A DNA stretch of 64,000 nt from Branchiostoma floridae (lineage: Eukaryota; Chordata; Leptocardii; Amphioxiformes; Branchiostomatidae). Positions within the stretch are counted from its first letter, which is position 1. Each line of letters begins with the position of its first letter. A model generated the notes under the pieces. It saw only the letters and a list, made by a program, of their open reading frames with translations. It did no database searches and had not been told where the DNA came from. The translations under genes and the position numbers were made by a program. Positions 19,868 to 61,373 of the stretch are shown one piece after another. The stretch is taken from positions 17,578,746 to 17,642,745 of the forward strand of contig NC_049983.1 in the NCBI RefSeq assembly GCF_000003815.2. The letters are read 5' to 3'.

Positions 19868-19948
19868 ATGGAGGCCGGTGGAAACAACAAAAGGCAGGGC
19901 CTGCCCAAATTACGAGAACTTTTGCGCCGCCAGCGGAAAGACTCCGAC
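19868..19948 (+). CDS. STRIP1: STRIP coding exon 1 (aa 1-27)
   Basis: It opens MEAGGNNKRQ and ends RRQRKDSD, matching the human NQRKDSE segment. The donor is GTACGT, phase 0. The N terminus is shorter than in human STRIP1, lacking the proline-rich start. Confidence 0.88.
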
Positions 19949-31900: not shown

Positions 31901-34900
31901 AAAAAGTTTGAAAAGCATTGCATTTAATCAATGGAATGACAGCATAATACAGTTGAAATGATACCCAGGTACTATTGCACCAGCCTGGCCTTGGAGACAA
32001 ATGAGGCAATGAAACGGCGTTCCCCTGTTGTTCCAGGTGTGTTTGGAGAGTGCGAGACGGAGGCTGACCAGCTGAAGTGGGCGCGGCACAACGTCTTCTT
32101 GTTGTACGACTGCGGCGTGTTCTCGGCCTGTGTGGAGCTGCTCAGTATGGAGATCGAGTCAGTGCCGTTTCGAAGCCTCCCTCTAATTGTCTCTGATGCT
32201 GCGCTCGCTCTATTTTTGCGTATACATTTCTATTTTTCATTTCCAAAACTGTTTGGAAATGTGACGTTAGCCCTATGTCTAGCCCCATGTTCCCAGACAT
32301 GCAAATGGTAAAGGCGACTCATTCAGTGGAAGCTCATTTCGGCATCTCTCAAAGAATATAGTTTTGCCTTCACAACCCCCCCGATAGAAAGACAAGGTCA
32401 ATGTTTTCATCCATGCAAATGGTGGGCAGATCGACATTGAAATATTGAAATCTTAATTTGATAGATAACTCTTTTTGTTCACAAAAGATCTGTTACTTCT
32501 AGTTTTTTCAAATCCTGCATGGAGCTGTTCAGTATGGAGATCGAGTCAGTGCCATTCTGCATCCTCCCTCTAATTGTCTCTGACGCTGCGCTCTCTTAAT
32601 GCGCCCCGACGTTTTTACGATCGTTATAAACACATCGCGGGGCAAGTCTAGAACGTGCCATGATTCCCCTTAGAGGGAGAGCTATGCATCTCTTTCAATA
32701 AAATTTTGAAAAACCCTGCAAGATTGTTGCAGGCAAGCAAAGCTGTAAGAAGGAGGCCGTGATTAAACATTTATTTTCAAATGCCACAAAGTTCGGTGAC
32801 CGTTTGAAAAGAAACATATGGACAATGTGTTGCATAACGCACTGTAAAACATTTCCTAGGAGTGTACACAAATCTTTCCTCAGGGCATATTCGTGATTTC
32901 GCTTTCCCGCTCAGGAAGATTTTTCTCTGAATCAAAGTTTTATACTTTGTGGTCTTCCATAATCCTTAATGGAAATCAAGTATTTACAAAGGTTTCAAGA
33001 TTCTGAGACCAAAGATTCTGGAGTAGTTGGCATTTCATTTCGAGGTATCAGACTGGATCAAGGAATAACCCTGTGAAATGTTTTGCATCATTGCAATCCT
33101 TTGTCAGGAACACGAAGGCTTATTACTTCTAGTACTAGATTTATATACTTTTACGTCACTGGCTTTAGTTTGTGCTAACACATGAAACCAGATCAGTTGT
33201 TTTAGGTTACCAGTTCTTTTTGGTTTCAGAATAAACATACCAGCGACACCACCTTCGGATTTCGAAGGATGTTTTCTTCCTTCTGTGTAAAAGAATCCCG
33301 GTGACCTTTGCGAGGTGTCAAATTTCCAATTAGTTTGTCCGTGATCAAAACCTGGGGGCTTTGTTGCCCTTGGCAATGATCTGTCTTGTGCCTCTCGAGG
33401 TGATAGCCTTAAGAAAAGACTCCGGGGCTTAGAGCAGGCTTGAGACCACATGTGCAACCACAAACACCCCGCCGCCGGAGTACTTGCCTAAACTTCAACT
33501 TTCCTTTGTTCTAGGAACGGCAACGCACAAGCCAGCGCACTAAGGAAGCCTGCGGTCTCGTTGGCTGACAGTACGGACCTCAGGTATCGTTTTTCCCCCG
33601 TCGCCTCCTTTGTTACATGCGCAACAATGCAGGCCTGTGTTAATCCATGCGGCCTGGCAGGTATTGCACACATGTAACAATATATCTAGTTACTAATTAC
33701 AAAGGATGAGGATCACCTTGAGCACGACAACTCCTGTATTGTTTTCCTTTGTTTGACCGTCAACAATGGCCGTCCAGAACACCTATTGGGTCTGCATTCT
33801 TGGGAAATTCCTTTGTTTTTTCGTACTTGTAAGGTGTGAAGTTGTGCGGTTTGTCATGTAATTGATACTCCAGGGATTGTTTTGAAGATGAGGTCATCTG
33901 GTGTTGGTCACTTTTTGCATCTTAATTTATTTGTTCAATGGACATTCAACTTTTATCTAGTTGCCAGAGCTACTCTTAGGGATATCATTGTTTCTAGACA
34001 AGGAAAGGCTAGATGTAATACTTCCATTGTGGATTATGATACCAGTTTTAAAGGCTGACTTCAAAGGCAGACTTCTACCTCTGTTTTCTCTCCCAGATAT
34101 TAAATCCACATAATAAAAGTGTCTCTGAACCCAATCCACCAAAAACACAGCCTTACAAACTTCTAGTTACCAGAGTGTTACTCTTAGGGCTGTCTATGTT
34201 TCTAACTATAGGCAAGAAAAGATGTAATACTTCTAAGTGAAACATGGAATAAGATACTTGTTTTAAGGCAGACTTCGAAGCTTGAATCAGAGACTGGACT
34301 AAGTGATATAATGATGAATGATATATCACTCGATAAGAGTATGACTATGTACATGTATATATACAAAGTGCTCAAAGGCTGACTTCTCTGTTTTCTCCCC
34401 CAGAGTTGTCCTGAGCATCCTCTACACGATGGTGGAGACCATGAGGATGGGGTGTGACGCAGACACTCAGGAACAACAGCACCTCAGGGACATGTTCCAA
34501 CGAGAACTTGGTCAGTCCACTTCTCAGTTTTATCATGGAAGCTCATCTGTAGCTGTGTTTGTAGTACTAGTAATCATAGTACCAAGATAAACTTTCTTCC
34601 AACACAAAAGTACACACAGATCAAAATTTCAACGACCGTCACCTTCTTCAGGATCAATATTGATGACCAATCACTTCAGAACGTAAACTTGCGAGAGTTA
34701 TGGACATGTGATCTCATTAACACGTGATCTTCCAGATACGTGTCGTCGCAATTGGTCAAACTTTTCTGTTTTATTGCTGTCAACTTACTTTTATGATATC
34801 TAGTATGTGAGTAGGTGTTGGCATGACGACGAATAAGTTCGATTCTTGGCCCCTAGCAATTTTCTATGATAATGCACTAGAACATCAAGTTTTGTATCTT

Positions 34901-37900
34901 GGTGTGCGTATGTGTGTCTGGTATGCAAGTGTATATGCAGTTGTATGTACGTGTATGTATTGAGTGTATGTCCAAACATAAGGAATGCAGCGTTTACATC
35001 TCTGATTGCATCTTTATTGATTAAATGTCACTTGTAAGTGTCAACATTAAAATTGAATAAGACATAATGTACATGTCATGTACTTTCAGATTGGAAATGT
35101 CATATGATATCTTATCTGTACATGTGTATGTTCCTCACAAGAGTACTTTACACCAAATTAATTTTTTTTCTGTCTTTTCCGTGTAATTGAGTGATCAGTT
35201 TTGACTATATATGATAAAGATTATTAACAATATGTCATTGTAACATTATGAGCACCATGTGCAGAGAGGTTGACTGTATCAGCAATGGAGATATAGCACA
35301 AAAAAGTAATAGATATTAGATAATTTGCACACAGTTCACTCGTACAGATAAACTTTGCTTCACACTTTCCCCTAGGACTAGATCTTCTTGCTCTTCCCTT
35401 GAACATGGAGTATGTATCTAGAAGGTATACATAATGCAGATAACAGTGTGGGTCATCCTTGAAAATTTCAACAACTTTTATGGGATGGATGGAAAATTAG
35501 ATTTACTCGTAGCTTTTTCATAGAACAACATGGTGATTCTTATCTAATAACTCTATATTGGATGTATATAGTGGCTACGATATGTTGTTAGTTTGTAAGG
35601 ACAGCAGTAGATCATCAATGACGGTGACGGTCTGCTTAAACTATGGGTGGAATGCACAAACATACAAACGATGTTCTTGTGTTTTGTCTATACATTGGAG
35701 GATGTTTTCCCTGTGATTTTGTTGTGGGATGATAAATTCAGATAGCATTCAGATTGAGGACAAAGCATGACTCTTCTTCATTAGGTAGTTGTGCAAACAG
35801 TGGGTCACCCCTACGTAAGTGTGTTGGGTTCATAGGTTTGACGCTTGAGGCTTAAGCCTGAAGCTTTCTCATACACGGGGCAGCCGGCTTTATGTCATTA
35901 GCCAAGATGACAAATGCTCTTCATTTTAAAGCTCTTTTAAAGTGTAACACTAGAAAGTACAAAATGTCTACTGAAAAGACTAGAAAGTAAGAAAAATGTG
36001 TCTTTTCACGTATTCAAAACTCTATCAAATACATTTTTAAAAACTTTTGAGACTAAAATGCATGTATAAAATACATGTCTTTCACTCGTTGAAACACTCT
36101 TTCAAATACATAACACTTTTTTATAACGGTAAAAGTACCTACAAAATATGTATTTTTCACTTGTTTAAAGTTCAATGCAAAAAGTAGCTACAAAGAGTGT
36201 ATTTTTTCACTTCCGTTCAAAAAGTCCATCACCTACATTTTTAAAAGATGGGCCTTGTGAGTTTGTGACATTATAGCAATGCCTTTTCCAAGTGTCACAT
36301 TGTAGTAATTGATGCACATCAATGGATGAAATTTACTGCGGTCAGGTGGGCAACCTGTTGTATGTTCTCCACATGTAGCACATGCTGGCCTCTCGGTGGG
36401 GGGTGGGGGGCACGTAATAAATGACACCTCAGCGCTCAAGGTTAGGATTAGAGAAAACACACCACAGAGACCCACCGGACCAGGGAATGCAGTAATTTGT
36501 TTACCGTAACAGTCGACGTAATGTAATTATGCGCAGGCCAATCGGTCTTGCTCATCGCGTGTAGGGTGTGTTGTAAGACTAGTGATCAACTTGTCACGGA
36601 TTACTATCCGCACATGGGCAGGTATGCAAATCCTTTGTTAAAACGTGCAAGGTGGTGTCGACTGGTGAGGCTACGGAATCCAATAACCCAGCTGCATAGA
36701 TGGGGGATCAATTGACCAATACCCCATCCATCAATTTCAAGACAAGCAATAAGAAACCGTCCTTGATGGCCGATGTCATTTTCTCCGTGCGCGCACGTTT
36801 TAACTGCGTCACACAGAGCTTTGCGCTCTCCGAGAAGAGGATAGCGGGGCAATTTCGCACACTTGTGCGGCGGAGACATTCTTCTGGACTTTTGCGGGAA
36901 CATCTGGTGGGATCCAGTGACGTCAGGCCTTGCCCCACACCTGGGCAAACAGCCTCACCTTTATACCTGCTGAACAGTAAACAAACAGGGCGAGGTCACG
37001 GGGTGCAGATGTGAGGGAAGGGGCAAGCCTAGTCTCCAAGCAGACCCTACGGTGCCTTAGAGACAGTATCAAAGCTGGCAAAGGAATATAGCCAGTGCCC
37101 GTTTGACTCCCTTTGGCTGGCTATCTCACTTTGGCCAGCTATAATCCTTTGCCAGCTTAGATACTATCTCTAACTAGGCACTGTAGGGTCTGCTTGGAGA
37201 CTAGGCAAACTTCAGCCACACACCGGCACACCTCAACACCCAACACCTCCCACCAATTGCCCATTATAAGGAAAGACCTTACAGTGATCTCTCAACCTCA
37301 AGGTCATTAATCAAATTGTAACAAACTGGTAGACGCAAGGGAAGGGGCAATAAAGGTCCTGGGCAGGGGCGGAGGGGTGAGAGGGCACTCCTACGGACTC
37401 ATTTGCTATCATCCCGAAATGGCACCTTTGAACTGGGCGGCGATAATTGCTCCTGGTACTCCACAACTCTGCCACAGGCGCACACAGAAAATTAAAAACT
37501 ATAGGGGGCCGATTGAAGAGCTCAGATTAGCCTCATTTCTGGCGCGGGAGTTCCGACCCCAGCTGAAGTGAAACGAGGTATAAAGGAGGAATAAAAGACT
37601 ACACACCCACTGGTCAATTTGAAAATAAAAATTAATTGAAAAGTGCTGACATCTTTTAATGGTGAAATATCTAACAAATGAATGTTATGAAAAATGGAGA
37701 TATTACATTCCATAGTAAGGAATTGTGTACGTGACGTGCTATTTTGTTGTTAGATTTAATTCTCTACAACTGGATAGAAAATTACATCCAGATGTTTCGA
37801 GTTGCGTCTGTCACTGTTTATGGTCTAGTATGTATGTATCCAGTTACAAGTTGAGACTTCTGTGTGCAGAGTTTTCATCCTGGCACCTTTGCAATTGTGG

Positions 37901-40900
37901 TTGACCAGTGTTTTCTATATCTATATTTCCTTCACCATATAGCACATCATCTGTCGTGAAGGAAATTTAAGAGTTTGACATTACTCTATCTACCTTCTAC
38001 AATACAAATACATGTTTGGATGAGATGAATATCAAAATTTTTAACTATTATTTGCTTTTAGATAGTAGGCCAAGCCTATTATGATGAAGAAAATCCAACT
38101 CTTTCACTGTCTTTTTCCATAGGTAAAAGGCGAGACATGGTGTAGAGTAAAGAAAATCAAATCTTTCTCTTCTACATTTTTCCTCAAGGCCAAAGCATCT
38201 ATGATAAAGTGCATCAAACTCTTTCACTTTTTTTGCCATAGGTAATAAGCAAGACATGTTGGGTAAAGAAAATCAAAAACCCTCTCTTGACTCTTCTACA
38301 TTTTTCCTCAAGGCCAAGTCATCCATGATATAGAAAATCACTTTCTTTTGCCAGGTAATACACCAGACATGCAGGGTAAAGAAAATCAAACTTTCTATTC
38401 TACCTTTTTCCACCAGGCCAAGCCATATATGGTAAAGAAAACCTGGCTGTTCTACTGTTTGGGATGGTGACAAAGTTCTGCAGCGGAAACGCTCCCCACT
38501 TCCCCATGAAGAAAGTGTTGCTGCTACTGTGGAAAGTTGTCTTGGTGAGAGAAAGTCTTAAGTTGTTGTAGGAGCTCTATAAGATGTCCTGACTTTTGAC
38601 AATATAGTTTGTATGTGAGATTTAATTAGATGCCGTGTATATGTATATTTAGATATATGATAATTTGCAATATTGGCATTTTCAACAGCATGAAGTAAAT
38701 CAAACAAGTCATATGTCTTGAACCAAGAATTGTATTAACTTTCATAACAATGTAATCTAGGTGTTCCCGTGAGCAATAATCTGGAAACCGCCGCAAAAGC
38801 CTGTTATAGAGTAGCACCAAAATTACAGCATTGCTTGGAAAATAGTTTTTGTGATATGCCAAAATGTTACAATTTTCTGAAGTAGACTGCACGGTGCCAT
38901 TATTAAGGTTTTGCACATGTTTTTCCAAATTCAAAGTGACACATTCTGAGCATTATTTCTGAAATAAAAGTCTTGTGTGATAGTTTCAAAATGGCACAAA
39001 TTCTTAAAATGGATGTATAAAACATATTTCTTGTCAAGCACATTCGCTTGACTCTTTCATGTAGCAGTGCAAAGTGTTCAGTACACTTATGATATGGTAC
39101 TTTTTCAAATAATGTGGTACTTTGCAGATGTAATATGGTACTTTTGCAAATAATGTGGTACTTTGCAGATGTAATATGGTACTTTTGCAGATATGATGTG
39201 ATACTTTGCAGTTATAATGTGGTACCTTTGCAGATACATTGTATAAATGTACTTTTGCAGATATAATACAGTACTATTCTAGATAAAAGGTGATACTATT
39301 TTAACAAGAGTTCGTAGACCTCAGGCCTGCATGAAATGTATTGGGTGTCTGTAGACCTATTGTTTATCTTTTTTTTCTTTTCGTCCGTGGTTGCGTTGTT
39401 GGAAAAGTGAGATTTTTACCATGTTGGTTGTGCACCATGCAAAAGTTTAAAATTCCATTTTCGGAATGTGTAAGTTTGGGCATGGATGAACATAACTTAT
39501 TTTGGATTTCTTAAGCATGTAACCAACCACAGCACCTTGAAGTTGTTGAGACGACCTTTCCTACCTTTTTTTGTCTCAGAAGGCCCATGTAGTTATTCTG
39601 TCACATATGATATATTCAGTACTGATATCTTCCTATTTCAATGTACTGACCTAATGGAGCTGCTAAATCTCCTTAGTGTGGCAATGATATTCATTAAAGA
39701 TTTATTTCTGGGGTGTTATATCACTTGACACTGGAAGGTTATTTGCATAATTTGACCAATTATATTTTTACAGTAGTTCCATGGACAATATGAATAGTGG
39801 TAGCCCCCATCCAGCAACAACAGTTAGTCCCCAGGGTGGTATGATATTTTTATTCAACCCATCCAACTAAAACCTAAATTTCTTGAAGTACCTAAGCCAA
39901 ATTTAACAGCAGAACTTGCTATTCAAAATGTCCTTGTCAATCCCATTCATAAATGGCAAGCTGCTGGCAACTGTAAAAAGTTCAGAAAGCTGTTGTAGTC
40001 AGAGTGAACCCCCAGCAAACATTCCCCCAAATCAATGAGCAGTTGCTTAGAGGGGGAAAACAATTTCATCATATTTTTGCAGTGACAAAATGCAACAAAC
40101 GATAACAAATTTAAAACAGAACAAAGCCTCTACCACTTAACCCTGCCCGTACTATAGATTAAGCAGGCCCAAAAATCAAGTGAATATGACTAGCCCCAAA
40201 CTACAAATTACCTGCATACAATAGGGAAATGGCATCCCCAAAGAAACAACTGTTACAAGAAACACAGGAAAAATCATACACATACCTTTCTCTTACACTC
40301 AAGCTCTATACGTTTCTCCTTCACTTTAGAAAGTTGTGTCTTCTGCTGATTGCCAAACAGGGTAAAAGAACTTGTACCAGAACTTTAAACTCAGTACTAC
40401 ACAGCTCTCAAAACACCACAAAGACTAACAAGCAAACTCAAATTGGTTAGGTACAATTTGTAGTACATCATCTGGTATTAGACACTGTTGATACAAAGTA
40501 ACCTGATACATTAGAGGTGGCCCAGGCCAGATGATGGTTCTACACCCAACCGTAATCTGTTTTAACAACCAAGCAGATATTGGGAGGATGCCCCAACCAC
40601 ACCAAAACAGGGTCAACCTATACAGTATCAAGTTCAAGCACTAGGAGGCCCAAAATCAAACCTCACCACCAGGACACCACCAACAACTCACGTACCAAAT
40701 AGCAACACAATGGCACCTTGCGTTCCGGAGATACAGCGCACGCCCCGTGCCTGCACAAAAGGTAACCTAAAATGTCAAGTTCAAGCACCAAGGGCGCCAA
40801 AATCAAAATTGAGAATTATTCAGCCACCGCCAACACATGTGCCAAATATCATCGCGCCCGCACCAACCGTTCAGAAGATATAACTCCGGAAATACCCCTC

Positions 40901-43900: not shown

Positions 43901-46900
43901 ATTATCAACATCAAGATGCAAATGCACTTGGAACTGGTCCAGAAAGAAATAGAATTCAATTTTATGATGGCTTCAAGCATCTCCATGCTGTTTTCTTACA
44001 TTCTGTGGATGTGTATTCTGATGTTGTCAAGATTGTCCAACCCATAACCTTCAGCACACCAATTCTTTATTCGGGTTAGGTAGCAGGGACAAGGTTACAT
44101 AATAGAAGTTGCCACATTTTGTTACATTAAAAACAATCATACATTTGTTGTGCAATAAATCAAATTATTGTGATAGACAGAAGAACACCACAGAAGCCTC
44201 AACACAAACTGTTAAATTATGGAGGAGAAACTTCCTCATACGAGCGTAACTTACAGTGAAAAAAGATCCAGTATGTCATCTGCATAGATTGCGATGCAGG
44301 ATTACTATTTGATCACGCAATCCCCATGTTTAATTTTCTGTATGCAAATGTGAGCAAAGAGATCAGAGGTCTTAATGCGCTTCCCGCCGTGACATGACAA
44401 ATGTACCCTGTCATCTGCACGTTCCTCGTGTTTCCCCAATCCCTCCAAACTTCAGAACTAGGATTTTCATTATCTTCGGATTACGCGGGTCTTACCCTGA
44501 TCGTATGATTAATTGCCGACTTCTCCCACCGGAATTGTCGGTATGGCTTTGCCATGACTTTTTTCCCCCCTTTATTTTTCCATTTCAGGAATTAATACTA
44601 AGGCAAACTAGTATGGAAGATTCCATGCAGGGAAGGAGGGGGAGGATGATGGGAAGGATGGGGATGTTGGAAATGGAATTGTTGGTACGGATTTGTCGTG
44701 ACTTTTTTCCCCCTTTTTTTTCATTTCAGGAATTAATACTAAGGCAGACTAGTATGGAAGATTCCATGCAGGGGCAGGATGGGGAGGATGATGGGAAGGA
44801 TGGGGATGACGATGATTTAGACGATTACAACGAGGGGATGCCAGGAGCCATGCGACCTTCGACCCCTCCGCCACCACTAGTGCATGTACCAAAGGGGCTG
44901 CCCTGGACCCCAAAAGTCAGGTCAGTTTGGGTTTTGTGATGGTGAGTGAGTCAATGAGAGTATAAGTGAGTGAGAGTGAGTGGGTGGGTGAGTGAGAGAG
45001 AGGGAAGGAAGGAGTGAGAAGAGAGGATGTGAGTGTTGAGTGAGTGAGTGAGTGAGTGAGTGAGTGAGTGAGTGAGTGAGTGAGGGTGCGTGAGTAACAG
45101 TGAGTGAATGAGTGAGTTAGTATGAGTTTGAGTGAGTGAGTAAGTGAAAATGAGTTGGTTAGGATATTAGTGAGTCAGATAAAGGAGGAAAGAGAAGTAA
45201 TATGATAATAATGATTATCTTTATTGCATGTTCATGCCTGAAGGCCAAACACACAATTGACTACATGTGGTCTGTTGAATGAAAAGAACATTCTACATGA
45301 CATTGTATGACAATGTATCTTGTCAATGGTTTGGTAACAATAGCTACATGTACATGTACATACAAGTTCCCATTTTGTAAGTTTTGAACCCACTATAAAA
45401 TGCATTCTGAACATTGAAGAGATTCATTTGAAACGTGTTAACAGCTAATAGAATCTAACAGTTACTTCTTTTTAAAGGTATACATACTTACCTCCAAATT
45501 TTTATGGCTATCAGTCCATCTTGTTCATGGCTTAATCTAGTCTTGTACATGGAGGTACACGTGTGTACCTTTAAAAAGAAGTCACTGTTAGAGGAAAATT
45601 CTATTAACCAAGTATTCTTAAGTTTTAAAGTGAACATCACGTAACACTGTTACTATGTAAGTGGATTAACGAAATCCATTTTGCATGAAAAGCTTCACAG
45701 CAACATCCCACTCCTTGACAGGATTATGAATGTGTCTAAGTTATAATGAAAAACTAATTGACATAAATGTCGCGATTAGTATAGAGTAAGTGCAAATTTG
45801 GTAAACAAATGTAAAGAAATAGACTAAGCAGTGTTTGGCATACATTTGTTTTTGTTCATAAGGGTCCCAAGTTGCTCGTTTAAGATATCTAAGGATTGTG
45901 TCAACATCAATGAGATTAAAGTAGCTTACATTTACTTAAAGCATACATGAACTAACTGACAATGAATGGAAAAATATGTGTTTGTTTTTTCCTGTTTCAG
46001 ACAAAAAGATTTGGAATGCTTCCTGGACCACACTAGAAACAAATTTGTAGGATTTTCAGTTGGAATGTAAGTATGAGTCAAACTGTTTTACCACAGAGCT
46101 TTTTCCTTGGTTTTACCATTTTCTTCCTCTAAACTTTTCTTTGTGATTCAATTTGGAGTATGCTAATCAAATCTATTCTAACAATATACAATTATAGTAG
46201 ATGGAAGGAAGATATATTTATAATATAATGTATGCTTGATGGCTAACTGCATGTACAGTACAAGTTTCTTTCGGTCTTGTAGTGAATACAGTAACTGTAA
46301 ATGCATTTAGATTTGGTGGGATTTGATTTCGTGGTAGCGGGAAAGGGACTTTTTTGCGGTGGTTTTAAGTTCGCGGTAGCACCATGCACTGTAGACTCTT
46401 ACTGCCATGGAAAAAAAAAACATTAAAGTTTTAACCACCGCGAAAGTTTCTGCATTTACAGTACTCTAACTAATGAAATGTATTTCATTTTCTGCTGCAT
46501 TTACTGAGCAATTTTACTTCTTTTGAAATGGTGTTTTCTTTTTCATTATCCACAGAGATTCTGACACGTTAATAGGACTTCCACAACCTATACACGAAGG
46601 AGTAAAAGTTTTGAAAAAGGTACTGCAGATTTGTCTTTCTTTTGAGCTCTAGTAATAGTATGTTTGTATGATATTAGCATATTTTAAGATTGATGCAAGT
46701 ATCTTATTATTGCTTCCAAATTACATGCTCTAATCTACTTTAAAGTAAGCCTTCAAAGAATACTTTAAGTCGACGGATTAGGTTGTGCTTGTAATGTTAT
46801 TTACCCAGTAATTGTTTTTATTTTCAGCATGTATATGTGTCACTAGCTGAAGTACAAATTAGAAGAGAAGAAGAAATTGCAAAGAATCCCATGACAAAGG

Positions 46901-49900
46901 TAAAAACCCTTTTATTTTCTCAACATAGTATTTCAAACACATTTTTTGTTCTATTCTGACATTCCTATTTTCAGCAAGCCTGGCTTTCTAAAGGAAAATT
47001 ACATACATTATGGAAAATTGTCTTCTACTATCAAACTTACCGGTATCTATTATTCTATTTCTCATTTCTGCATCATTGTGTATTGAAGATTCCACACTGA
47101 AAAAGGAAACAAGGTTCAAATAACTAGAGGCAGTGTGGGACTGGTCAATACTAATAGATATGCTTTGCTTTCTTTTGACTTGATTGTTACATAATTGCCA
47201 TGAACTGGGTAATGACAGAAATAAAAACTGTTGACAACTTTGAAAAAAAAAAAACTAATTGTGATGATCATGTTTTTTCAGCAAAGTTCAGCTTAAGATT
47301 ATGCAGTGAGAGTACTTGCCAAAAGTCTTATTGTAGCCTGAAATCCATCCTATTCTGGGTTAAGTCAGCTTCTCTGATCGCCACCATGCAGAATAGTTAA
47401 CAGACAATTGTTTGACATTTGAATAGTCTCCTGAAGTGTAGGTGAGAGCTGAGATAAGCTCCAAGTCACAGGATCTCCTGTAATGGCATGGTAACAGAAT
47501 CACACAAGCTATTGAATCCTTTTACACTACTTCTGAAAAATTTCACTATACCAAAACTAATCCATAACCTTTGGCCCAAACGTTTGAATGGGTACTGGTT
47601 TCAGACTATTTTGCTGGGTAGCGATCAGACAAGAACACTGGAGCTAGACTAAGATGGCTTCAATGTTGCTAGTGTTGCTGTTCCATGGCACCTTCAGTTT
47701 GAGTTGGTGATGGTCACCCAGGTAGACTTTTACTTTTTTTTCTGACGTGTGTGCTTCTGTCCCCTGGGTCTGAAGTTCGACCTTGTTGCTCAGGGTGAAG
47801 GTGAGATCGTGATGACCCCCCGGGAGGTGCTGTACCAGGGGATGCTGCCCAGTCTGCCGCAGTACATGGTGAGGTCTTAGTATATCCTGTATTTGTTTGA
47901 CAGAAACTATACAGAAACCTGTTTAGTGACACTGTTTACAACTAGTTTATACTCAACAATAAATACAATTAGGGGTGGGTACCGGTACAGACATTTTCAG
48001 GATTAGGTATAGTCCAGGTCTAAAGGATCAGGTCAAGGTCCAAACCTGAACCGGGACCTGATTATCTGTGAAAACTTGTGAATGTTCAATACTCAAAACA
48101 ATGGTACCTTTCACTTCAAAGGAATCTGTTTGATAGAGTTATCCAAATGGCGTTTTAAAATCCTGTCTTCATGTAAATAACTCTGTTAACTCAGACTGTA
48201 CTGATACTAACCTGTAACGAAGCAATGGTGGAGTATATCAATATGTGACAAAATATAATTCATGCTGTGTTGCTGGCTGTTGAGACATGCTAAGTATCTT
48301 CCCCCTCCCCCAGATTGCCCTGTTGAAGATCCTCCTGGCAGCTGCCCCCACCTCCAAAGCCAAGACAGACTCCATCAACATCCTGGCTGATGTGCTGCCT
48401 GAGGAGATGCCGTAAGTACTTGTACACTAGAAGGAAAGAACCGTTAAAACTATGAGTTCTACTTCTCACCGCTATATGTAGCCGATGTAGGTGGCGCTTT
48501 TGCGGTGAGAAAACCGTTTTTCTCACCGTTAAAACTATGCTATGATATTACAACATGATGCAAAACTTGAGCAACAACAACATGCTGCTCTGAAACATCT
48601 TGGCCACACAACACAGTAACACAGATGTTACAAATTGGGAAGGAAGTTCTGTCTCCACCATTCTTCACACAAATTCATGCCCTTGGTCCACCTGACAGGT
48701 GTGGTTTATCATGCTGTTTAATAAATCAATCAAGGTGACCAATGACATCACTTCTTGTTAAAAGCAATCATTTTAACATGCCTTCAAAACTGTAACGTTA
48801 GTTCACCTTTATCCGTGGAGTGGCTTCTATCTGTTGTATTTAGAAACGTGTCTAACTCTCGTAACTTTACGTTCAGTGATTTAATGTCATCAGTATTGAT
48901 TCTGAAGAAAGCGACGGTGGTCATTGAAAATTTGATCCATGTATACCTTGGTGTTGGAAGAAAGTTCAGCATTGTTCTATCAATTTTTTACCTCCCCCCT
49001 GACAGGATCACAGTGTTACAGTCCATGAAGCTGGGGATCGATGTGAACAGGCACAAGGAGATCATCGTGAAGGCCATCTCAGCTGTCCTGCTGCTGCTGC
49101 TCAAGCACTTCAAACTCAACCATGTCTACCAGGTGAGGAAAAAAACATTACATTAACCCTAAAAGTGTCAGGCTGGCCCAAACATACTCTCTAAGCAGAG
49201 GTTGGGTCAGGCAAATAGTAGTAACTAAAAACAACACTGGTGTAGCAATGTGTATCTGCTTGGTGCTGAGTGCATCTACATTAACCCTAAAAGTGTTAGG
49301 CTGGCCCAGGCAGAGGTTGGGTCAGGGGAATAGTAGTAACTATAAAACACTACATTAACCCAGAAACTGTCAGGCTGACCAGAACATAAGGTTAGACATC
49401 CAGGTGAACAATATTCAAATACAATTCAGTCTCTACCATTAGGTGAAAAATGGAGTTTTACTTCTGGACATTTTGAGTGACATCCATTACTCTTCTTCAG
49501 CGTCACTAGAGTTGCAGGGATATTGCCCTATCTGGTATTGGTGATGAAGCAGAAGAAAATTCAAAATTTCTTAGCTCACTTAATTTTGGTCTGAATCTTT
49601 GCCTACAATCATTCACAACTCACAACTTGACACAACTATGCACAAAAGCAAGAAGACAACCATGAAATTGTGAAAAGCAGAGTAAAAGAGGTGACAGCAA
49701 AGAGAATTGAAAGAGACATCTTTTTCCCAGATCTAAAATAGTGGCACTATTGATTGTAAGGTCCCAAGTGTAAAAATGCACACTACATTCTAATACCTTC
49801 CCCCTGAAGCAAAAGTACAAAAGTACGTTTATTTGGGTTATATTTTCACCTGTAAGCCATGCAGCCTAGAGACAGGATGATCACACCTTCAAGACATGGA

Positions 49901-52900
49901 ATTAGTGCGGGCAGGCCCACGTCTGACTGAATATCCTGACATTTCGTTTGATCTCCCGGCAAACATTGGACTCGCCGAGCTCAGGTGCCGGTCTGTACGC
50001 TCTCATTAGGTAACCACGGCGATAAGGCGCTCATCTCCCCGGCTCCCCCGCGAAACATGGTCTCGGCGGGATTGTGGGGAGAAGGCCAACGCCGGACGGG
50101 GGATTAGTACATCAAAGTGGGACCTCATCACGCCTTCGTTATAGAAGGCCGAAGGACTATTAGCAAGGATTAGGTTTTACACGCATCGTCAAAGTCTTCT
50201 CTCATGTAGAAGACATTAGTACTTATCAAGGAGGGTGTCAATCTTCTAACAGGTTACTGTCTCCTTGTAGGTGTCTTGAAGAACGTTAACAAGCGACAAG
50301 TTGGCGCAGTCACTTTTGTTTTGGGTACTGCGAAGTTGCAGGAAGAAGGCAGTTGCATAAGCATCAATTATCATTTTCTGTCAAAATTGTGACTCCATTC
50401 CTCTTACCATTTTGATGAGGACTGATATATAACATTATAGACATAAAATAGTATTATACTTGTGAAATAGATCTTATAAAGTTCAAACTATTGTTCTTAT
50501 AGATATGTCTCAATGTCAAAATATTTCATGTCTATCACTATCTATAACATATATATAACATTATGTATATAATGTTGAAGTTCTTGTTCGTCAACAGTGT
50601 TTTTTAATTGTTCATACCTAGGGCACAGCCTTTCCTACACAATTTTGTGAATCAGGATTTTATGACATTCAAAGCACTGATGGTGATGCACCATTTTAAG
50701 AGGGATCTCTTAACAAATCTCTGTTGTCTGTAACCTTGAAATTTCAAAATAAAACTGTCGCATAGTTCAGACTCTGGGGACTTTTAAGGGTTTAAACTTT
50801 TTAGAGTTAAAACCTTGAGCACATCCTTCCCAATCAGCCTTGAGCACATCCCTGACTTCCAGGATGTTTTTTTTCACAGTAGTGTAGAAAATGTTTTCAC
50901 TTATGATCTTAATTTTCAAATCAAGTCTACATTTCAGTTAAGTGCATGTCAAGCATACATGTACATGGATAATATGGATGACATCCTCTGGGAACCCCAA
51001 AACTGATGTGAGCTTACAAATTTTTAAAAGGTTTGTCAACAAATAAAAAATGTTGCCCTCATTATGAAATCTAAGTGGTCAGGAAGGTTGGAAAAATTTA
51101 ACGATTCTTCATATTTGTTCTTTTACATCTCCTTTACCTTTGGAATTGACTTTGGAATTCTACAGCATCACTATCCGTTTTCAATATTTTGTTGAAACTT
51201 ACAGCAGATTTACTCACTTAGTAGCTGCTTTGAATGATTTACAGCATGGTCAAAACTTTTCCTTGTTGGAAATGGATGAGAATTGTCGTGCATGCGGATG
51301 TCATCCATATACATATATGTAATCAAATCAACATGGCCTCATGATTATTTGTTTTTCCTCAATAAGTCTTAAGTTTAGATATTCCTTTATTCTTGGAGCT
51401 TCCAATATTGAGCTGTGGTTACAACACAAATATTGTCTTGGCACGTATTGTAAAATGCTTTCTGTTTTTCCCCAGTTCGAGTACATGTCCCAACACCTGG
51501 TGTTTGCCAACTGCATCCCGCTGGTGCTGAAGTTCTTCAATCAGAACATCATGTCGTACATCGCAGCCAAGAACACCATCGCTGTCATCGACTTTCCCAA
51601 CTGTGTCATCGGCGAGCAGCCAGAACTCACCGCCGAAAGTCTGGTGAGTCAGTCGTCTTTCTTCATATTTTCTTTGTGCTCTTTATGTAACAACGCACAA
51701 CAGACGCAAACAAGGACGCCAAGCTACTACCTATCAACAGTGTATGTTCGACGGTGCCTATGAGATTTTAGATCTGCCATCTAGCTGCCAACAGAAGGGC
51801 CTGGCAGAAACACTGCAGCCAACTGATGAAGACGATGACGATATTTTTTAATAGTGACATTTTTTACAGTCACTGAACTTGTTCAAACTCTTGAAACCTG
51901 ATACTTAGTGCCAGAATTTTCAGTGTGTTATTCAGTAGCCTAGATGCCAGACTGTTTCCTGGGGCCTACACAGGCCAGATTAGTTGAGATCGGGCAGGGG
52001 GTCTAGAATCCAGGGTAGTTACGGAGTAACTATGAAATCTGGATCTTTTACACTTACTTGCTGAAGCATTGTTTGTCATGGCATTGTGTCGACGTAACGG
52101 TTTGGGTGTTTTGGGCCCAGAACCCAGAGGAACTGGGTTAGAATCCCCCGACATGCCACCGATGTTGTGCCCTTGGCAAAGTCACTTAACACGACTTTAC
52201 TCAGGCCACCCAGGTGTAAAAATGGCTTTGGTTGGCAAGGTAAGGAGAGGACTTGGCCCCACCTTCCAATGCACTTGGATATCAACCCACTGTCACTATG
52301 ACCTCAAAAAATGCTATGGAACAACCTTTAACTTGACCCTTTACCTTCATGTTTGTGTCCCTTCCCTTTTGTCCACAGGAAGCAGGAGACAGTATCCAGT
52401 TCTGCTGGAGGAACCTGTTCTCCTGCATCAACCTGCTCAGGATCCTCAACAAACTCACCAAGTGGAAACACTCCAGGACCATGGTGGGTACTGCTAATAG
52501 TATTTACTCTAGTTCACTTTTATCGCACGGGGCAACCTACATCCGTTGTATTGAGTTTAACTTCTGGAAAGAGATCGGTTGCTAAATTTCCTTGCTAAAA
52601 CTGTCTGTTTGCCCCCCTCCCCCCTGTGTCTGCACAGATGTTGGTGGTGTTCAAGTCTGCGCCGATCCTGAAGCGAGCCCTGAAGGTGAAACAGGCGATG
52701 CTGCAGCTGTATGTCCTGAAGCTGCTGAAGGTGCAGACCAAGTACCTGGGGCGGCAGTGGAGGAAGAGCAACATGAAGACCATGTCTGCCATCTACCAAC
52801 AGGTCAGGCACAGACTCAACGACGACTGGGCCTACGGAAACGGTGAGTTTGTACCACAGAACTGCGACCCCTAGTCATGCAACAGCTTTATGTAAGTCTC

Positions 52901-54400
52901 CCCCCTTTCAGGTCCACCGCTACCATTCACTCAGAAACAAACACACAATCTCCATCCCATCAGCAAGAATAAAAAGGACTATAGAACTTGTTCTACACCA
53001 ATCTATCAGACTATCAAAACAGATGTCCACTGCTATCCCCGTGCACAGTTTCCAACTTCTTAATTCATTGCCTTGAAGTGGTCTTGTGACCTTGCTTTGA
53101 ACAATCTTGTTAAAAAAAAAAAATTTGACAATCAGACAGTAGAATCAGGTACATAATAAATGGGTAACAGTCATGTCAGGGATGTACAGTTTATATGTCC
53201 AGTCTGTTGAATTGTGCTGTAAATGTCTGGCAGTGTTCTTTTGTGTTCTTTAAAAAAATTTATGTCTGTAATGTTAATATCTGAATAAAGAATTGACTTA
53301 GATGTAAATTATTTACATCTATGGAACCCTTACCCTCTGTAACAGACATGGATGCCAGGCCATGGGACTTTAAGGCGGAGGAGTGTGCTACAATGTAACT
53401 CTTTCTTGAACAAATAATAGAATTATTGCATGTTTGCTTTACTTATTTACTTATTTTCATGTGTTAAACCCATTTTACTCTGTAACAGACATGGATGCCA
53501 GACCGTGGGACTTCCAGGCAGAAGAGTGCGCCCTTCGCGCCAGCGTGGACAGGTTCAACCAGCGGCGGTACGGGGAGGAGCCCAGCGGCATCGAGGCCGA
53601 GTTCCAGCATGTGGACAACAACCTGCTGAGTGTGCTGGGGCAGAAGGTGTGTACGAGTACGTTATTAGATTGTGGCTGTTTGACAAGGCACAATTTGTGT
53701 GCATCTATGTTAGATTGCGGCCATTTGACAGGGCAGAAGGTGTGCACATCTACATTCTTAGATGAATGCGGCTGTCTGACGGGGCAGAAGGAGTTCTAAC
53801 CAGCATCTGTCCTTCCATTTTGACAGAATTTTGCTGCTGGGGATGGACAAACATTTTGCCCATTCCATCCTCTTTGACAGACAGGAAATCGGCATATAAA
53901 GATAGTAATTGAACCAAGCTGAGTCTACCAGCATAATTTGCCCCTCAAAAGAAAGGAAATAGCATTTCAGAGGGTCTATATTTGTCTAGGATTGTCACGC
54001 TTTCGACAGGATTTCTATTCAAAATCCAGTGGACTGAAAAAAATTTCATGAAATAATCCACCTCTTAGGAGGAAGTTCCACGCTGACAGCGCCTTTCCTA
54101 GAACTTCATCATTATGGAATAAGCTTCCACAGACTTGCTTCCCTGTGGGGTACAACCTGAAACTTTTTAAGTCAAGGGTCAGACATCTTTCTTCACATTC
54201 CTTTATTGTAACCCCAAACGCTTGAGTGGCTCTATGAGCCTTGTTTTGCGGTGAAACTTAAGTAAATAGAAAATTTTAAAAACATCTTCCAACGTTCCCT
54301 CCAGGTGGACCTACCCGAGGAGTTCAAGCTGGGGTACGAGAAGTGGCTGCAGCGCGAGGTCTTCACCACGCAGATCGACTGGGACCAGCTGCTGTCCTGA
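19868..54400 (+). CDS. STRIP1: Striatin-interacting protein (STRIP1/STRIP2 pro-orthologue), 21 coding exons, gene span
   Basis: STRIP proteins are core scaffolds of STRIPAK, which joins PP2A, striatins, MOB4 and MST/GCK kinases and acts in Hippo signalling, cytoskeleton and vesicle traffic. Joining 21 exons gives 2394 nt, 797 aa plus stop (human STRIP1 is 837 aa). The N-terminal N1221-like half runs from about 25 to 320 ([64 protein letters not shown]). An acidic linker follows (about 320-375), then the DUF3402 half to the end (PKGLPWTPKVR, PSLPQYMIALLKILLAAAPT, RNLFSCINLLRILNKLTKW, RQWRKSNMKTMSAIYQ). Conservation with the human protein is very high in the C-terminal half. All junctions are GT-AG and phase-consistent except the exon 5 donor. 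The gene stands out for duplicated exon edges (see findings). Exons are listed separately. Confidence 0.95.
22958..23057. other. Assembly gap, 100 N
   Basis: A run of exactly 100 N is the usual placeholder for a gap of unknown size, so the true length of intron 1 is not known. Confidence 0.99.
24002..24180. mobile_element. Foldback element in STRIP intron 1
   Basis: The left arm AGCCTCTACCAGGTTCCACA is mirrored by the right arm ending TGTGGAGCCTGGTAAAGGCT. Pairing continues through CTGGAAAAATAG and beyond, for roughly 50 bp per arm. It is non-coding and MITE-like. Confidence 0.7.
24349..24418 (+). CDS. STRIP1: STRIP coding exon 2 (aa 28-51)
   Basis: It encodes [18 protein letters not shown], the first strongly conserved STRIP block. 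The acceptor is TCTCCAG; it leaves one base at the donor. Confidence 0.92.
24419..27999 (+). other. STRIP intron 2
   Basis: It contains a candidate regulatory block at 25120-25420 (separate entry), a poly-C run near 26587 and otherwise unremarkable AT-rich sequence. Confidence 0.85.
25120..25420. promoter_or_regulatory. Candidate intronic enhancer with perfect DR1 site
   Basis: TGACCTTTGACCT (25201-25213) is, on the minus strand, AGGTCAAAGGTCA, the textbook DR1 bound by HNF4 and by RXR heterodimers. Forkhead-type TGTTTGTTTTC and TTTGTTTGC lie within 70 bp upstream. The block is richer in GC than its surroundings and has no repeat signature. Enhancer function is inference. Confidence 0.4.
28000..28074 (+). 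CDS. STRIP1: STRIP coding exon 3 (aa 51-76)
   Basis: It encodes [20 protein letters not shown], close to the human ELSELYSYTEGPEF segment. The acceptor is TTTTTCCAG. Confidence 0.93.
28075..30215 (+). other. STRIP intron 3
   Basis: AT-rich, with a poly-C tract near 29866. No gene, element or conserved-looking block that I can support. Confidence 0.8.
30216..30347 (+). CDS. STRIP1: STRIP coding exon 4 (aa 76-120)
   Basis: It encodes VPEKWTVIDSGLQKMHILRL through RSLLYLAQG, the counterpart of human ARAILYVAQG. The donor is GTAAGT. Confidence 0.92.
30348..32036 (+). other. STRIP intron 4
   Basis: AT-rich unique sequence. A diffuse relic of the TACTGTAAAT foldback family may lie at 31094-31272. 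Nothing else is assignable. Confidence 0.75.
32037..32160 (+). CDS. STRIP1: STRIP coding exon 5 (aa 120-161), donor unresolved
   Basis: It encodes [20 protein letters not shown] through LLSMEIES. The acceptor is good (TGTTCCAG). The end given is the point that restores frame with exon 6 and the human spacing, but no GT follows it (the genome reads AGTGCC). The frame stays open to 32308, so a weak downstream donor is possible. The last bases of this exon are duplicated 387 bp downstream. Confidence 0.75.
32519..32600 (+). repeat. Duplicate of STRIP exon 5 3' edge and flank
   Basis: About 80 bp repeats 32133-32213, which is the last 28 nt of exon 5 plus about 50 bp beyond it, with few changes (the core AGTATGGAGATCGAGTCAG is identical). 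The offset is 387 bp. Confidence 0.9.
33515..33583 (+). CDS. STRIP1: STRIP coding exon 6 (aa 161-184)
   Basis: It encodes [20 protein letters not shown] then DLR, matching human [16 protein letters not shown]. The acceptor is TGTTCTAG and the donor GTATCG. Confidence 0.9.
33957..34406 (+). repeat. Local duplications of the intron flank before STRIP exon 7
   Basis: 33957-34100 and 34162-34275 are diverged copies of one segment (GTTTCTAGACAAGG... then AAGGCAGACTTC). The polypyrimidine run TCTGTTTTCTC ending in CAG appears at 34098 and again as the true acceptor at 34402-34403. Confidence 0.7.
34404..34510 (+). CDS. STRIP1: STRIP coding exon 7 (aa 184-220)
   Basis: It encodes RVVLSILYTMVETMRMGCDA through MFQREL, the counterpart of human VLLNIMYLIVETV. 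The acceptor is TCTCCCCCAG; relics of its flank occur upstream. Confidence 0.92.
36480..37015. promoter_or_regulatory. Candidate intronic enhancer block (octamer-SOX, CRE, forkhead)
   Basis: This GC-balanced, repeat-free block sits inside AT-rich intron. It holds ATGCAAAT (36624-36631) followed at once by CCTTTGTT (36632-36639), an octamer next to a SOX-type site. It also holds a full CRE TGACGTCA (36918-36925) and a forkhead-like GTAAACAAAC near 36976. It opens no convincing reading frame. A role for STRIP or the neighbouring E-protein gene is inference. Confidence 0.4.
37030..37203. mobile_element. TA-flanked foldback element, GTCTCC tip, 174 bp
   Basis: Arms GTCTCCAAGCAGACCCTACG and the exact mirror at the right end are bordered by TA. 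Inner arms TATCAAAGCTGGCAAAGGA and its mirror extend the pairing. It is the best preserved member of the longer subfamily also seen at 6349. Confidence 0.85.
38061..38416 (+). repeat. Tandem array of acceptor-bearing units before STRIP exon 8
   Basis: AG sites end pyrimidine-rich runs at 38122, 38188, 38241, 38312 and 38354, with a further, T-rich but weaker AG at 38068; the true acceptor is at 38416. After each AG comes a version of the exon 8 start (GCCAAGCCATATATGGTAAA) or of a related GTAAAAGGCGAGACATGG form. The two forms alternate, giving a higher-order period of about 120 bp. Confidence 0.9.
38417..38544 (+). CDS. STRIP1: STRIP coding exon 8 (aa 220-262)
   Basis: It encodes GQAIYGKENLAVLLFGMVTK then [20 protein letters not shown]. 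The acceptor at 38415-38416 is the last of seven similar AG sites in a tandem array; it is the only one followed by the conserved frame. Confidence 0.93.
39090..39300. repeat. AT-rich minisatellite, left block
   Basis: Roughly 20-25 bp units of the type GGTACTTTTGCAGATATAAT occur about nine times with drift. The same unit resumes at 41247, so the two blocks were probably one array. Confidence 0.85.
39301..41246. mobile_element. Probable insertion of unknown type splitting a minisatellite
   Basis: This 1.95-kb stretch lies between two blocks of the same minisatellite, which suggests insertion. Its right part is a 147-bp tandem satellite, and near its right edge is a palindrome CCTGCATACATGCAGG (41228-41243). 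I see no transposase or reverse transcriptase and no clear target duplication, so class and exact limits are open. Confidence 0.4.
40625..41190. repeat. Satellite-like tandem repeat, unit about 147 bp, four copies
   Basis: The marker TCAAGTTCAA recurs at 40628, 40776, 40928 and 41070 (spacings about 148, 152, 142). Units share GGCCCAAAATCAAA, CCACGTACCAAA and GAGATACAGCGC. An older, more diverged unit may precede 40625. Short open frames across it are an effect of the repeat. Confidence 0.8.
41247..41385. repeat. AT-rich minisatellite, right block
   Basis: It continues the unit seen at 39090-39300 (GTGGTACTTTTCTAGAT type) for about six copies and stops 35 bp before STRIP exon 9. Confidence 0.8.
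41420..41602 (+). CDS. STRIP1: STRIP coding exon 9 (aa 263-323)
   Basis: It encodes TSLGGFRELQDWKNKAREVA, then LNVIKNMRAASPP and RRPRMSQRK. The donor is GTATGA, phase 0. Its last 42 nt are repeated three times in the next intron. Confidence 0.93.
41564..42230 (+). repeat. Four-copy tandem repeat of STRIP exon 9 3' edge with donor
   Basis: Units start at 41564 (true exon), 41730, 41920 and 42094. Each holds GAGACCCAGGATG, CACAGAGAAAA, the donor GT, a TTTG microsatellite and ATTTATTCA-type flank. Copies two and three keep a 42-nt open segment between AG and GT (41727-41768, 41917-41958); copy four has lost frame. Confidence 0.92.
42231..44528 (+). other. STRIP intron 9, remainder
   Basis: No repeat or exon that I can support. 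The part around 44330-44500 is less AT-rich and could be conserved noncoding sequence. Confidence 0.7.
44529..44729 (+). repeat. Upstream copy of STRIP exon 10 acceptor and first half
   Basis: The segment 44529-44669 repeats as 44670-44810 with few changes. An acceptor CCATTTCAG ends at 44588 and is followed by GAATTAATACTAAGGCAAAC; the true exon starts 141 nt later. The interval has no stop in the exon frame, so use of the upstream acceptor would add 47 residues. Confidence 0.88.
44730..44920 (+). CDS. STRIP1: STRIP coding exon 10 (aa 324-387), acidic linker
   Basis: It encodes ELILRQTSMEDSMQGQDGED, a run of Asp/Gly, then PPPPLVHVPKGLPWTPKVR, the counterpart of human CPKGLPWAPKVR. An earlier copy of its acceptor and first half lies exactly 141 nt (47 codons) upstream in the same open frame. 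Confidence 0.9.
44937..45170. repeat. GTGA/GAGT microsatellite
   Basis: Long runs of a GTGA unit with interruptions start 17 bp after the exon 10 donor. Confidence 0.95.
45448..45606. mobile_element. Foldback element in STRIP intron 10
   Basis: The left arm AATAGAATCTAACAGTTACT is mirrored at the right end; TTCTTTTTAAAGGTA and TACCTTTAAAAAGAA pair further in. It is about 159 bp and non-coding. Confidence 0.75.
46001..46066 (+). CDS. STRIP1: STRIP coding exon 11 (aa 387-409)
   Basis: It encodes RQKDLECFLDHTRNKFVGFS then VG, matching human EKDIEMFLESSRSKFIGYTLG. The donor is GTAAGT. Confidence 0.92.
46292..46463. mobile_element. Foldback element with TGTAAATGCA tips in STRIP intron 11
   Basis: Left ACTGTAAATGCATTTAGAT and right TGCATTTACAGT tips are inverted, with GCGGTGGTTTTAA and TTAACCACCGCG as inner arms. 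Same family as 7097-7290. Confidence 0.75.
46556..46619 (+). CDS. STRIP1: STRIP coding exon 12 (aa 409-430)
   Basis: It encodes IDSDTLIGLPQPIHEGVKVL then KK, matching human SDTNTVVGLPRPIHESIKTLK. Confidence 0.92.
46828..46899 (+). CDS. STRIP1: STRIP coding exon 13 (aa 431-454)
   Basis: It encodes HVYVSLAEVQIRREEEIAKN then PMTK, the counterpart of human HKYTSIAEVQAQMEEEYLRSP. Phase 0 at both ends. Confidence 0.92.
46900..47793 (+). other. STRIP intron 13
   Basis: About 0.9 kb of AT-rich unique sequence; nothing assignable. Confidence 0.8.
47794..47868 (+). CDS. STRIP1: STRIP coding exon 14 (aa 455-479)
   Basis: It encodes GEGEIVMTPREVLYQGMLPS then LPQYM, which is nearly the human LYQGLLPSLPQYM. 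Phase 0 at both ends. Confidence 0.94.
48314..48411 (+). CDS. STRIP1: STRIP coding exon 15 (aa 480-512)
   Basis: It encodes IALLKILLAAAPTSKAKTDS then INILADVLPEEMP, identical in pattern to human STRIP1. The donor is GTAAGT. Confidence 0.95.
49006..49132 (+). CDS. STRIP1: STRIP coding exon 16 (aa 512-554)
   Basis: It encodes TVLQSMKLGIDVNRHKEIIV then KAISAVLLLLLKHFKLNHVY, almost identical to human. Confidence 0.95.
49133..51475 (+). other. STRIP intron 16
   Basis: After the short tandem repeat it holds a GC-rich, repeat-free island at 49850-50200 (contains GGTAACCACGG and CGGCGGGATTG), possibly regulatory. The remainder is AT-rich with no support for genes. Confidence 0.7.
49145..49395. repeat. 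Short tandem repeat after STRIP exon 16
   Basis: ACATTAACCCTAAAAGTGT with GCAGAGGTTGGGTCAGG recurs at about 49150, 49280 and 49350. One unit contains a CTCTCTAAGCAGAGGTT piece, so the repeat may stem from a broken foldback element. Confidence 0.7.
51476..51643 (+). CDS. STRIP1: STRIP coding exon 17 (aa 555-610)
   Basis: It encodes FEYMSQHLVFANCIPLVLKF then FNQNIMSYIAAKNTIAVIDF. Phase 0 at both ends. Confidence 0.95.
52075..52310 (+). mobile_element. tRNA-derived SINE in STRIP intron 17
   Basis: A tRNA-like head includes a B-box-like GGGTTAGAATCC (52136-52147) with a degenerate A-box region before it. The body CCCTTGGCAAAGTCACTTAA then CACCCAGGTGTAAAAATGG resembles the conserved central part shared by several animal SINE superfamilies. 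The 3' tail is not clear. Confidence 0.6.
52379..52483 (+). CDS. STRIP1: STRIP coding exon 18 (aa 611-645)
   Basis: It encodes EAGDSIQFCWRNLFSCINLL then RILNKLTKWKHSRTM, almost identical to human. Confidence 0.95.
52638..52842 (+). CDS. STRIP1: STRIP coding exon 19 (aa 646-714)
   Basis: It encodes MLVVFKSAPILKRALKVKQA through RHRLNDDWAYGN, the best conserved part of the protein. The donor is GTGAGT with one base over. Confidence 0.95.
53330..53397 (+). repeat. Upstream copy of STRIP exon 20 acceptor and first codons
   Basis: After CTCTGTAACAG the copy still encodes DMDARPWDFKAEECA, nearly the same residues as the true exon 143 bp later, with mostly silent changes. It then diverges and meets a possible donor GTAACT that would not keep frame. 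Confidence 0.88.
53489..53646 (+). CDS. STRIP1: STRIP coding exon 20 (aa 714-766)
   Basis: It encodes DMDARPWDFQAEECALRASV through NNLLSVLGQK. Both of its edges are duplicated in the flanking introns: the 5' edge at 53330-53397, the 3' edge three times between 53686 and 53800. Confidence 0.93.
53638..53800 (+). repeat. Tandem repeat of STRIP exon 20 3' edge with donor
   Basis: Units of 45-50 bp begin GGGGCAGAAGGTGTG at the true exon end (53638) and recur near 53685, 53731 and 53781. Unit three keeps the donor sequence; the others are altered. Confidence 0.85.
54305..54400 (+). CDS. STRIP1: STRIP coding exon 21 (aa 767-797 and stop)
   Basis: It encodes VDLPEEFKLGYEKWLQREVF then TTQIDWDQLLS and TGA, matching the human end REVFSKPISWEELLQ. 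Confidence 0.94.
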   Translation: MDLPEEFKLGYEKWLQREVFTTQIDWDQLLS

Positions 54401-57619: not shown

Positions 57620-58640
57620 GTAAGAAAACTCAGTTACCGCAATGAGCTTTCTGATGAAAGCTCCCTCATTACCGTGGTTTCCCAGACAATCCAATCCTGT
57701 CCCTGATGAAACCCCAAGAACTCATCACTATTGACACATTTCCGGGGATGAAACTGTGGTCCGTGTGGTATCAAGATGGACACCGTGATCAAACATAACT
57801 CACAAGGTGTACATCCTTGTCGCTGTGAGAGTACAGCTATATTTTATTCTCTGTATTCTTTGTTGAAGAGTCAAGACACATTTAAGAGCAAAAGAAACGA
57901 CCTTCATTCTACATTTATGGGGTGAAATTGGGAGGAAAGCCAGAGAGTGCAGAAAAAGGACAGGTTTCATTATGAAATCAGGAAGTGGTCGAACAAATTA
58001 TTGAACACACACAGAACGTGACACAGAAACAATCATTTCTTCAATCAGCATTTTGTTAGTTCACACCTTCTCTTTTGCATCACGATTTCACTCATTAGTA
58101 TCCGTAGTACCAGACGAACAAACACGGGACATGTTACAACATTTCCCTCTCGGTCCGGGCCCGTTAAACCCGAAAGAGGTTAGCTGTTATAGGCCTTTAA
58201 TCCCTTGGTCAAACCCTGTGGTGGCCAAACTTGTCTGGTAAACTATGGCCAGTGTATTTAGTCTAATACTAATGAGTGAAATCTTGTAAAAGCAAAGGAG
58301 AAGATGGGAAAGAACAAAATGATAATTGAAGAATTGATTGTTTGTATAACATGTTCTGTGTGTGTTCAATGATTTGTTAAACCTTCCTGACCACTTCCCG
58401 ATTTCAAAATGAAGTCTGTTCTTTGGCCCACCGTTTTTCTTGTTCACTCACATCATTTTGGGGGTAACATTATATTATATGTAAACATGGCCTCACTATT
58501 CAAAATGGTGTCATGACAAGGATGAAATTAATTGCACTTGTGCTTTATTTGTTCTCCAGGGCAAGACTTGAATGCAAAGTGTGTGATGATTGTGTTTATA
58601 TTACTACGTTACTTTATTCTTGAATGCTAGTGTATTGAAC
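57620..58640. other. Stretch without an assignable gene
   Basis: AT-rich unique sequence, possibly intron of the candidate gene starting at 57431. I see no exon with conserved coding character. Confidence 0.6.
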
Positions 58641-60250: not shown

Positions 60251-60255
60251 GCTAG

Positions 60256-61043: not shown

Positions 61044-61373
61044 TCACAAGAAAGCCTATTATTAACTCTCTATATATTTCGAACACAGACGGTACTACAA
61101 GTTTGTTTGTAGGAGATTTAACACTACAAGGCTTTAGAATGCCAAGAAGCATATAGAAAATACTTCACTACTTGCTTACAACAGTAACAAAGTGGCATAT
61201 AGGCGTTAGTGACAAATCTAACATTGTTAAACCTACTTGACTATCTTCACTCCTTGTCTCACCCATTAGCAAACCGTGAGTTAAAACTAAGTTTTAGGAG
61301 TGGTGTTTGTGCCTTGTTTTGCGGTGAACTATAGTAGAATAGATCATTTTACATTTATTGTCGATGCCATTGG

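Follow-up and report, generated by a model that had tools for sequence, protein, structure and literature searches.

The STRIP (striatin-interacting protein) gene of the amphioxus Branchiostoma floridae carries copies of several of its own splice edges in the adjoining introns, and the question that this locus raises is whether such copies are produced by a process that favours exon-intron borders, as the original prediction proposed, or whether they are ordinary local duplications that happen to include a junction. To answer it, we rebuilt the gene within the window, that is, the whole stretch of 64,000 nucleotides analysed here. The spliced model comprises 21 coding exons and 796 amino acids, with AG and GT at 20 of 20 introns, and its exon numbering agrees with the one used earlier. 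Residues 14-795 match STRIP1 chain 7k36_I with 1172 bits in phmmer, and this alignment supports the exon borders that underlie the edge-copy finding; it includes no insertion of more than two residues, and neither a new intron nor an inserted segment is seen in it. Pfam searches identified DUF3402 (STRIP domain) in the open reading frame around exon 17 and nothing in three open reading frames lying in introns or downstream of STRIP. A run of 100 N at 22958-23057 represents an assembly gap, which implies that the window probably derives from a scaffolded draft.

The surroundings of the gene include other features. An open frame of 686 amino acids in one piece (17358-19418, minus strand) faces the first STRIP exon head to head. 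An HLH domain occupies its C-terminal part (Pfam PF00010, E 8e-11), and we take the protein to resemble an E-protein (TCF3/4/12). Since vertebrate E-protein genes have many exons, this one may lack introns or have arisen by retroposition. A full-model Rfam match to 5S rRNA at 11577-11697 on the minus strand reaches 50.4 bits (gathering score 38), which is modest for an intact 5S rRNA gene, so that it possibly represents a 5S-derived repeat or pseudogene; ARAGORN found no tRNA in the window. Direct repeats with a period of ~128 at 49142-49388 begin 10 bases past the exon 16 donor and are wholly intronic. Downstream of STRIP, a larger direct-repeat cluster extends over 58629-61515 (best pair 59782-60199 versus 61059-61515, 357/462) and is perhaps transposable-element material.

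Local duplications were defined as copies lying 15-1500 bases apart with a blastn score of at least 20. They were identified by block-wise local blastn over the window, since whole-window self-blastn is too insensitive for local repeats. At this threshold the window yields 91 HSP rows (each pair being listed from both sides), whereas four Markov-shuffled windows yield a mean of 0.0. Junction-carrying local copies that extend 5 or more bases to either side accompany 6 of the 40 STRIP splice edges at score thresholds up to 28, namely the donors of exons 5, 9 and 20 (E5, E9, E20) and the acceptors of E8, E10 and E20. All six had been proposed from the sequence, and alignment of each authentic unit against its intronic copy, by which the pairs in Table 1 were delimited, confirms them. 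The count falls to 5/40 when at least 10 bases per side or a score of 35 are required; the E20 donor is the loosest case and is lost at either setting. For E7 the acceptor flank alone is copied, with a single exonic base, as had also been described.

Table 1. Authentic splice edges of STRIP and their local copies (positions in the window; fractions are identical over aligned bases).
Feature	Position	Strand	Basis and details
STRIP gene, coding exons 1-21	19868..54400	+	spliced model and phmmer match
E5 donor edge, authentic unit (junction after 32157)	32127..32209	+	local alignment
E5 donor copy in intron 5	32514..32596	+	73/83 identity, offset 387; exonic 28/31, intronic 45/52; nine-base donor identical to authentic
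E7 acceptor flank, authentic	34372..34404	+	local alignment
E7 acceptor flank copy in intron 6	34061..34097	+	intronic 30/32, exonic 1/1
E8 acceptor edge, authentic unit (junction before 38417)	38365..38489	+	local alignment
E8 acceptor array in intron 7, three copies, first weak	38043..38380	+	TRF period 124 and alignments; units 113-124 bp apart
E8 acceptor copy	38252-38380	+	local alignment
E8 acceptor copy	38133-38232	+	local alignment
E8 acceptor copy, weak	38043-38110	+	local alignment
E9 donor edge, authentic unit (junction after 41602)	41559..41715	+	local alignment
E9 donor array in intron 9, three head-to-tail copies	41725..42206	+	TRF period 173; 166-190 bp apart
E9 donor copy	41725-41905	+	exonic 40/44; GT present
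E9 donor copy	41915-42070	+	exonic 40/44; GT present
E9 donor copy	42089-42206	+	exonic 39/43; GT present
E10 acceptor edge, authentic unit (junction before 44730)	44675..44808	+	TRF, local alignment
E10 acceptor copy in intron 9	44531..44666	+	exonic 75/78, intronic 50/55
E20 acceptor edge, authentic (junction before 53489)	53441..53531	+	local alignment
E20 acceptor copy in intron 19	53296..53388	+	exonic 36/43, intronic 37/47
E20 donor edge, authentic (junction after 53646)	53638..53690	+	local alignment
E20 donor copy	53731-53786	+	exonic bases only 9 (9/9), intronic 34/44
~45-bp array in intron 20	53665..53800	+	TRF period 45 at 53665-53752; the E20 donor copy in it keeps its GT (53739/53740)

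Each edge has one to three copies rather than the one to six stated originally: one each for E5, E10 and the E20 acceptor, and three each for E8 (one of them weak) and E9; the E20 donor array contains one copy with an intact GT and two without it. At all six edges the copies lie on the intron side, as had been emphasized; this location is uninformative, because a duplication that contains a junction leaves its unused copy intronic by definition. Contiguous arrays are found at four of the six edges, with periods of 113-124 bp (E8), 166-190 bp (E9), 141-144 bp (E10) and ~45 bp (E20 donor), and the other two are spaced direct repeats, with spacers of 304 bp at E5 and ~50-60 bp at the E20 acceptor. 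The three intronic E9 copies have common differences from the authentic unit, as would follow from growth of the array out of a single initial copy or from homogenisation. Gaps apart, divergence between copy and authentic unit ranges from 6% of aligned columns (E10) to 27% (weakest E8 copy).

The splice signals are largely preserved. As read from the alignments, the AG or GT dinucleotide is kept in 10 of 12 copies (E5 1/1, E8 3/3, E9 3/3, E10 1/1, E20 acceptor 1/1, E20 donor 1/3), and under a leave-one-out matrix 7 of the 10 edge copies scored fall within the range of the gene's real sites, reaching at least the weakest of them. The E10 acceptor copy scores 7.8 versus 8.1 for the authentic site, and the E20 acceptor copy even outscores its real counterpart (7.5 versus 4.4), which indicates that signal strength alone does not always separate a true site from its copy. 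Exon definition, given that the authentic exons are shorter, and published results for other genes lead us to infer that the true splice pair would be the one in use.

The copies belong to a broader regional pattern. The window contains 16 local-duplication clusters, 14 of them within STRIP; all 14 lie in 32037-53800 and none in the preceding 12 kb of the gene (p 0.002). This third of the window holds 14/16 clusters (binomial p 1.6e-5, with clusters taken as independent and with three short TRF arrays in the first 8 kb outside the 16). The 32-54 kb segment is a local-duplication hot spot, which can account for the accumulation of edge copies. Six of the gene's clusters span an edge and eight span none, although two of these eight touch one without spanning it by 5 bases (the E7 acceptor, and the E10 donor with a GTGA microsatellite).

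Are edges preferred within this background? At a score of 20 and a 5-base margin, 15% of edges (6/40) are spanned versus 10.9% of intronic positions, and circular shifts of the edges along the gene give a mean of 4.3 spanned edges against the 6 observed (p 0.26), with p values between 0.22 and 0.42 over 18 settings. Random placement similarly predicts 4.2 spanned edges versus the 6 seen (p 0.27). When whole clusters are placed at random, 3.0 edge-spanning clusters are predicted versus 6 seen, an excess of about twofold (p 0.053). Across variants of this test p varies from 0.03 to 0.24, being 0.034 without the microsatellite cluster, 0.09 to 0.24 at a 10-base margin, and, with placement confined to 30-54.4 kb, 0.13 at the 5-base and 0.24 at the 10-base margin. 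The observed-to-expected ratios are 1.43 for edges (Poisson 95% CI 0.52-3.1) and 2.0 for clusters (0.74-4.4), both with low power.

Two further controls err in opposite ways. The GC-matched control expects 5.0-5.9 edges versus 5 or 6 observed at the 5-base margin, and 4.8-5.6 versus 4 or 5 at the 10-base margin; it is inflated, since the GC-rich intronic points include the copies themselves, and we do not rely on it. When the edge-spanning clusters are removed from the control, only 2.6/40 edges are expected over the gene and 4.4/40 over 32-53.8 kb. Overall, no edge preference is clearly shown in STRIP, and the data are compatible both with none and with a moderate, three- to fourfold one. The step from six cases in one gene to a border-favouring process is therefore unsupported. 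Equal rates at edges and at random intronic points, proposed at the outset as the result that would speak against such a process, are close to what the edge-level comparison inside STRIP gives.

Our findings suggest that the STRIP copies are very probably mirages, as boundary-spanning repeats are called in amphioxus: ordinary local, mostly head-to-tail duplications that happen to straddle splice junctions. The observations behind this reading are the copies themselves, their local and mostly tandem layout, the kept splice signals, the wholly intronic duplications alongside them and the lack of a clearly significant edge preference. Duplications of tens to ~190 bp would arise in the 32-54 kb segment by replication slippage or unequal exchange, and would be tolerated through exon definition wherever the authentic exon and its partner sites stay intact, since splicing can then still pair the true sites. 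Unused copies would then decay as intron, and the divergence of 6-27%, together with indels, is as expected of decaying duplicates. Counting against plain duplication, two of the six edges have spaced rather than contiguous copies, a count by events puts the edge-spanning ones roughly twofold above expectation with borderline significance (p 0.034 to 0.13 at the 5-base margin), and the control without edge-spanning clusters expects the low values given above.

A border-aimed process, such as the repair of transcription- or splicing-linked breaks, would duplicate splice edges preferentially, and we regard it as unlikely. It draws on the 6/14 clusters that span an edge, on the two further clusters that touch one, on the 2.6 edges expected versus 6 once edge-spanning clusters leave the control, and on the same structure being reported for several amphioxus genes in the listed passages of two papers (PMC3087553, PMC3902484). 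However, the edge-level tests are null, and the event test within 30-54.4 kb reaches only p 0.13-0.24. The published cases stem from studies of exons, and STRIP was itself picked after the fact, which may raise the edge count without any targeting. The same effect may come from constraint on the exonic part of the authentic unit, which would make old edge duplications more readily recognisable than wholly intronic ones. The wider proposal, in which amphioxus has a duplication process with a real border preference of ~2- to 4-fold, STRIP is a hot gene for it and introns keep receiving junction copies from which new exons and introns could form, is improbable on the same data.

Selection might instead maintain the copies as functional alternative splice sites or as alternative exons in the making, a reading to which we give very little credence. 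The preserved dinucleotides and real-site scores would suit it, as would the higher identity on the exon side than on the intron side that 8 of 10 alignments of copy with authentic unit show, in most cases by a few points (the reverse holds in two E8 alignments); pooled over these 10, which leave out E7 and a third E20 donor alignment that is a self-match at offset 0, the two sides are alike (377/442 versus 529/616). For Adh3 and globin mirages, regular splicing seems undisturbed according to the passages listed (PMC3087553, PMC3902484). The suggested route to new alternative exons fares unevenly in the predicted products. Nine copy splice sites were tried, leaving out the third E8 copy and the two GT-less E20 donor copies, and two are predicted to give an open, in-frame outcome: the E10 acceptor copy (44589; +141 nt, 843 residues) and the E20 donor copy (53739; +93 nt, 827 residues). 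With each of the other seven, translation would end prematurely, after 210 to 729 residues. Beyond QG, the open E10 copy is translated in a shifted frame and hence does not look like conserved coding sequence.

Amphioxus heterozygosity amounts to a few per cent, and copy pairs other than E10 differ at 9-27% of aligned columns plus indels, more than allelic difference would be. Since, moreover, the repeats comprise nothing but short pieces around junctions, at six places whose periods differ, it is highly improbable that the copies are an assembly artefact in which two haplotypes or misassembled reads were placed side by side, despite the gap in the window, the E10 pair differing at just 6% of aligned columns plus gaps, the globin mirage that appears aberrantly assembled in the amphioxus draft (PMC3087553, passages listed) and the repeat counts that differ between two public versions (PMC3902484, passages listed).

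The STRIP edge copies belong to the already named mirage phenomenon, of which this gene is a new and rich example. A splice-site minisatellite at an amphioxus alcohol dehydrogenase locus had been put forward as a precedent, and it is borne out at second hand: as far as the listed passages of PMC3087553 and PMC3902484 describe them, "mirages" are local repeats in tandem with a unit that crosses an exon-intron boundary, known from Adh3, globins, troponin C and PGBD5. They sit at 5' or 3' edges beside an intact exon, and many copies keep AG or GT. In these passages, globin mirages are located in BflGb6 and BflGb9, with units of 150-160 bp (PMC3087553), whereas PMC3902484 adds PGBD5, with units of 60 and 108 bp, and cites troponin C; length or haplotype variation is reported for the Adh3 and globin cases in the two sources. 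The passages listed from a paper on huntingtin (PMC2206037) describe tandem repeat elements and assembly errors in amphioxus scaffolds and include no edge duplications. Among the matches listed from the open-access literature, outside which most subscription papers lie, none gives a genome-wide count of mirages.

STRIP resembles these cases in that its repeat units span the exon-intron boundary, at 6/40 edges with a 5-base margin and 5/40 with a 10-base one, and in that many copies (10/12) keep the splice dinucleotide. The tandem head-to-tail layout is shared by E8, E9, E10 and the E20 donor, whereas E5 and the E20 acceptor are spaced direct repeats. Units of ~45, 113-124 and 141-144 bp fall inside the 10-160 bp of mirages in the published passages; the E9 units of 166-190 bp lie slightly above this range, and the E5 unit measures 83 bp, with its copy offset by 387. 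STRIP differs most in number, with six edges in one gene versus one or two per gene where those passages give a number. In the Rogers model of intron gain by duplication across AG/GT proto-splice sites, which the listed passages apply to globins (PMC3087553), duplicated junctions such as those of STRIP are the raw material; STRIP differs in showing no new intron or inserted segment. If edges were preferred genome-wide, the rate at which duplicated splice junctions become available for intron and exon gain would be measurable, and the question must be posed against a high local-duplication background rather than against zero. To the list of one- or two-edge cases, STRIP adds a six-edge gene together with an in-gene control.
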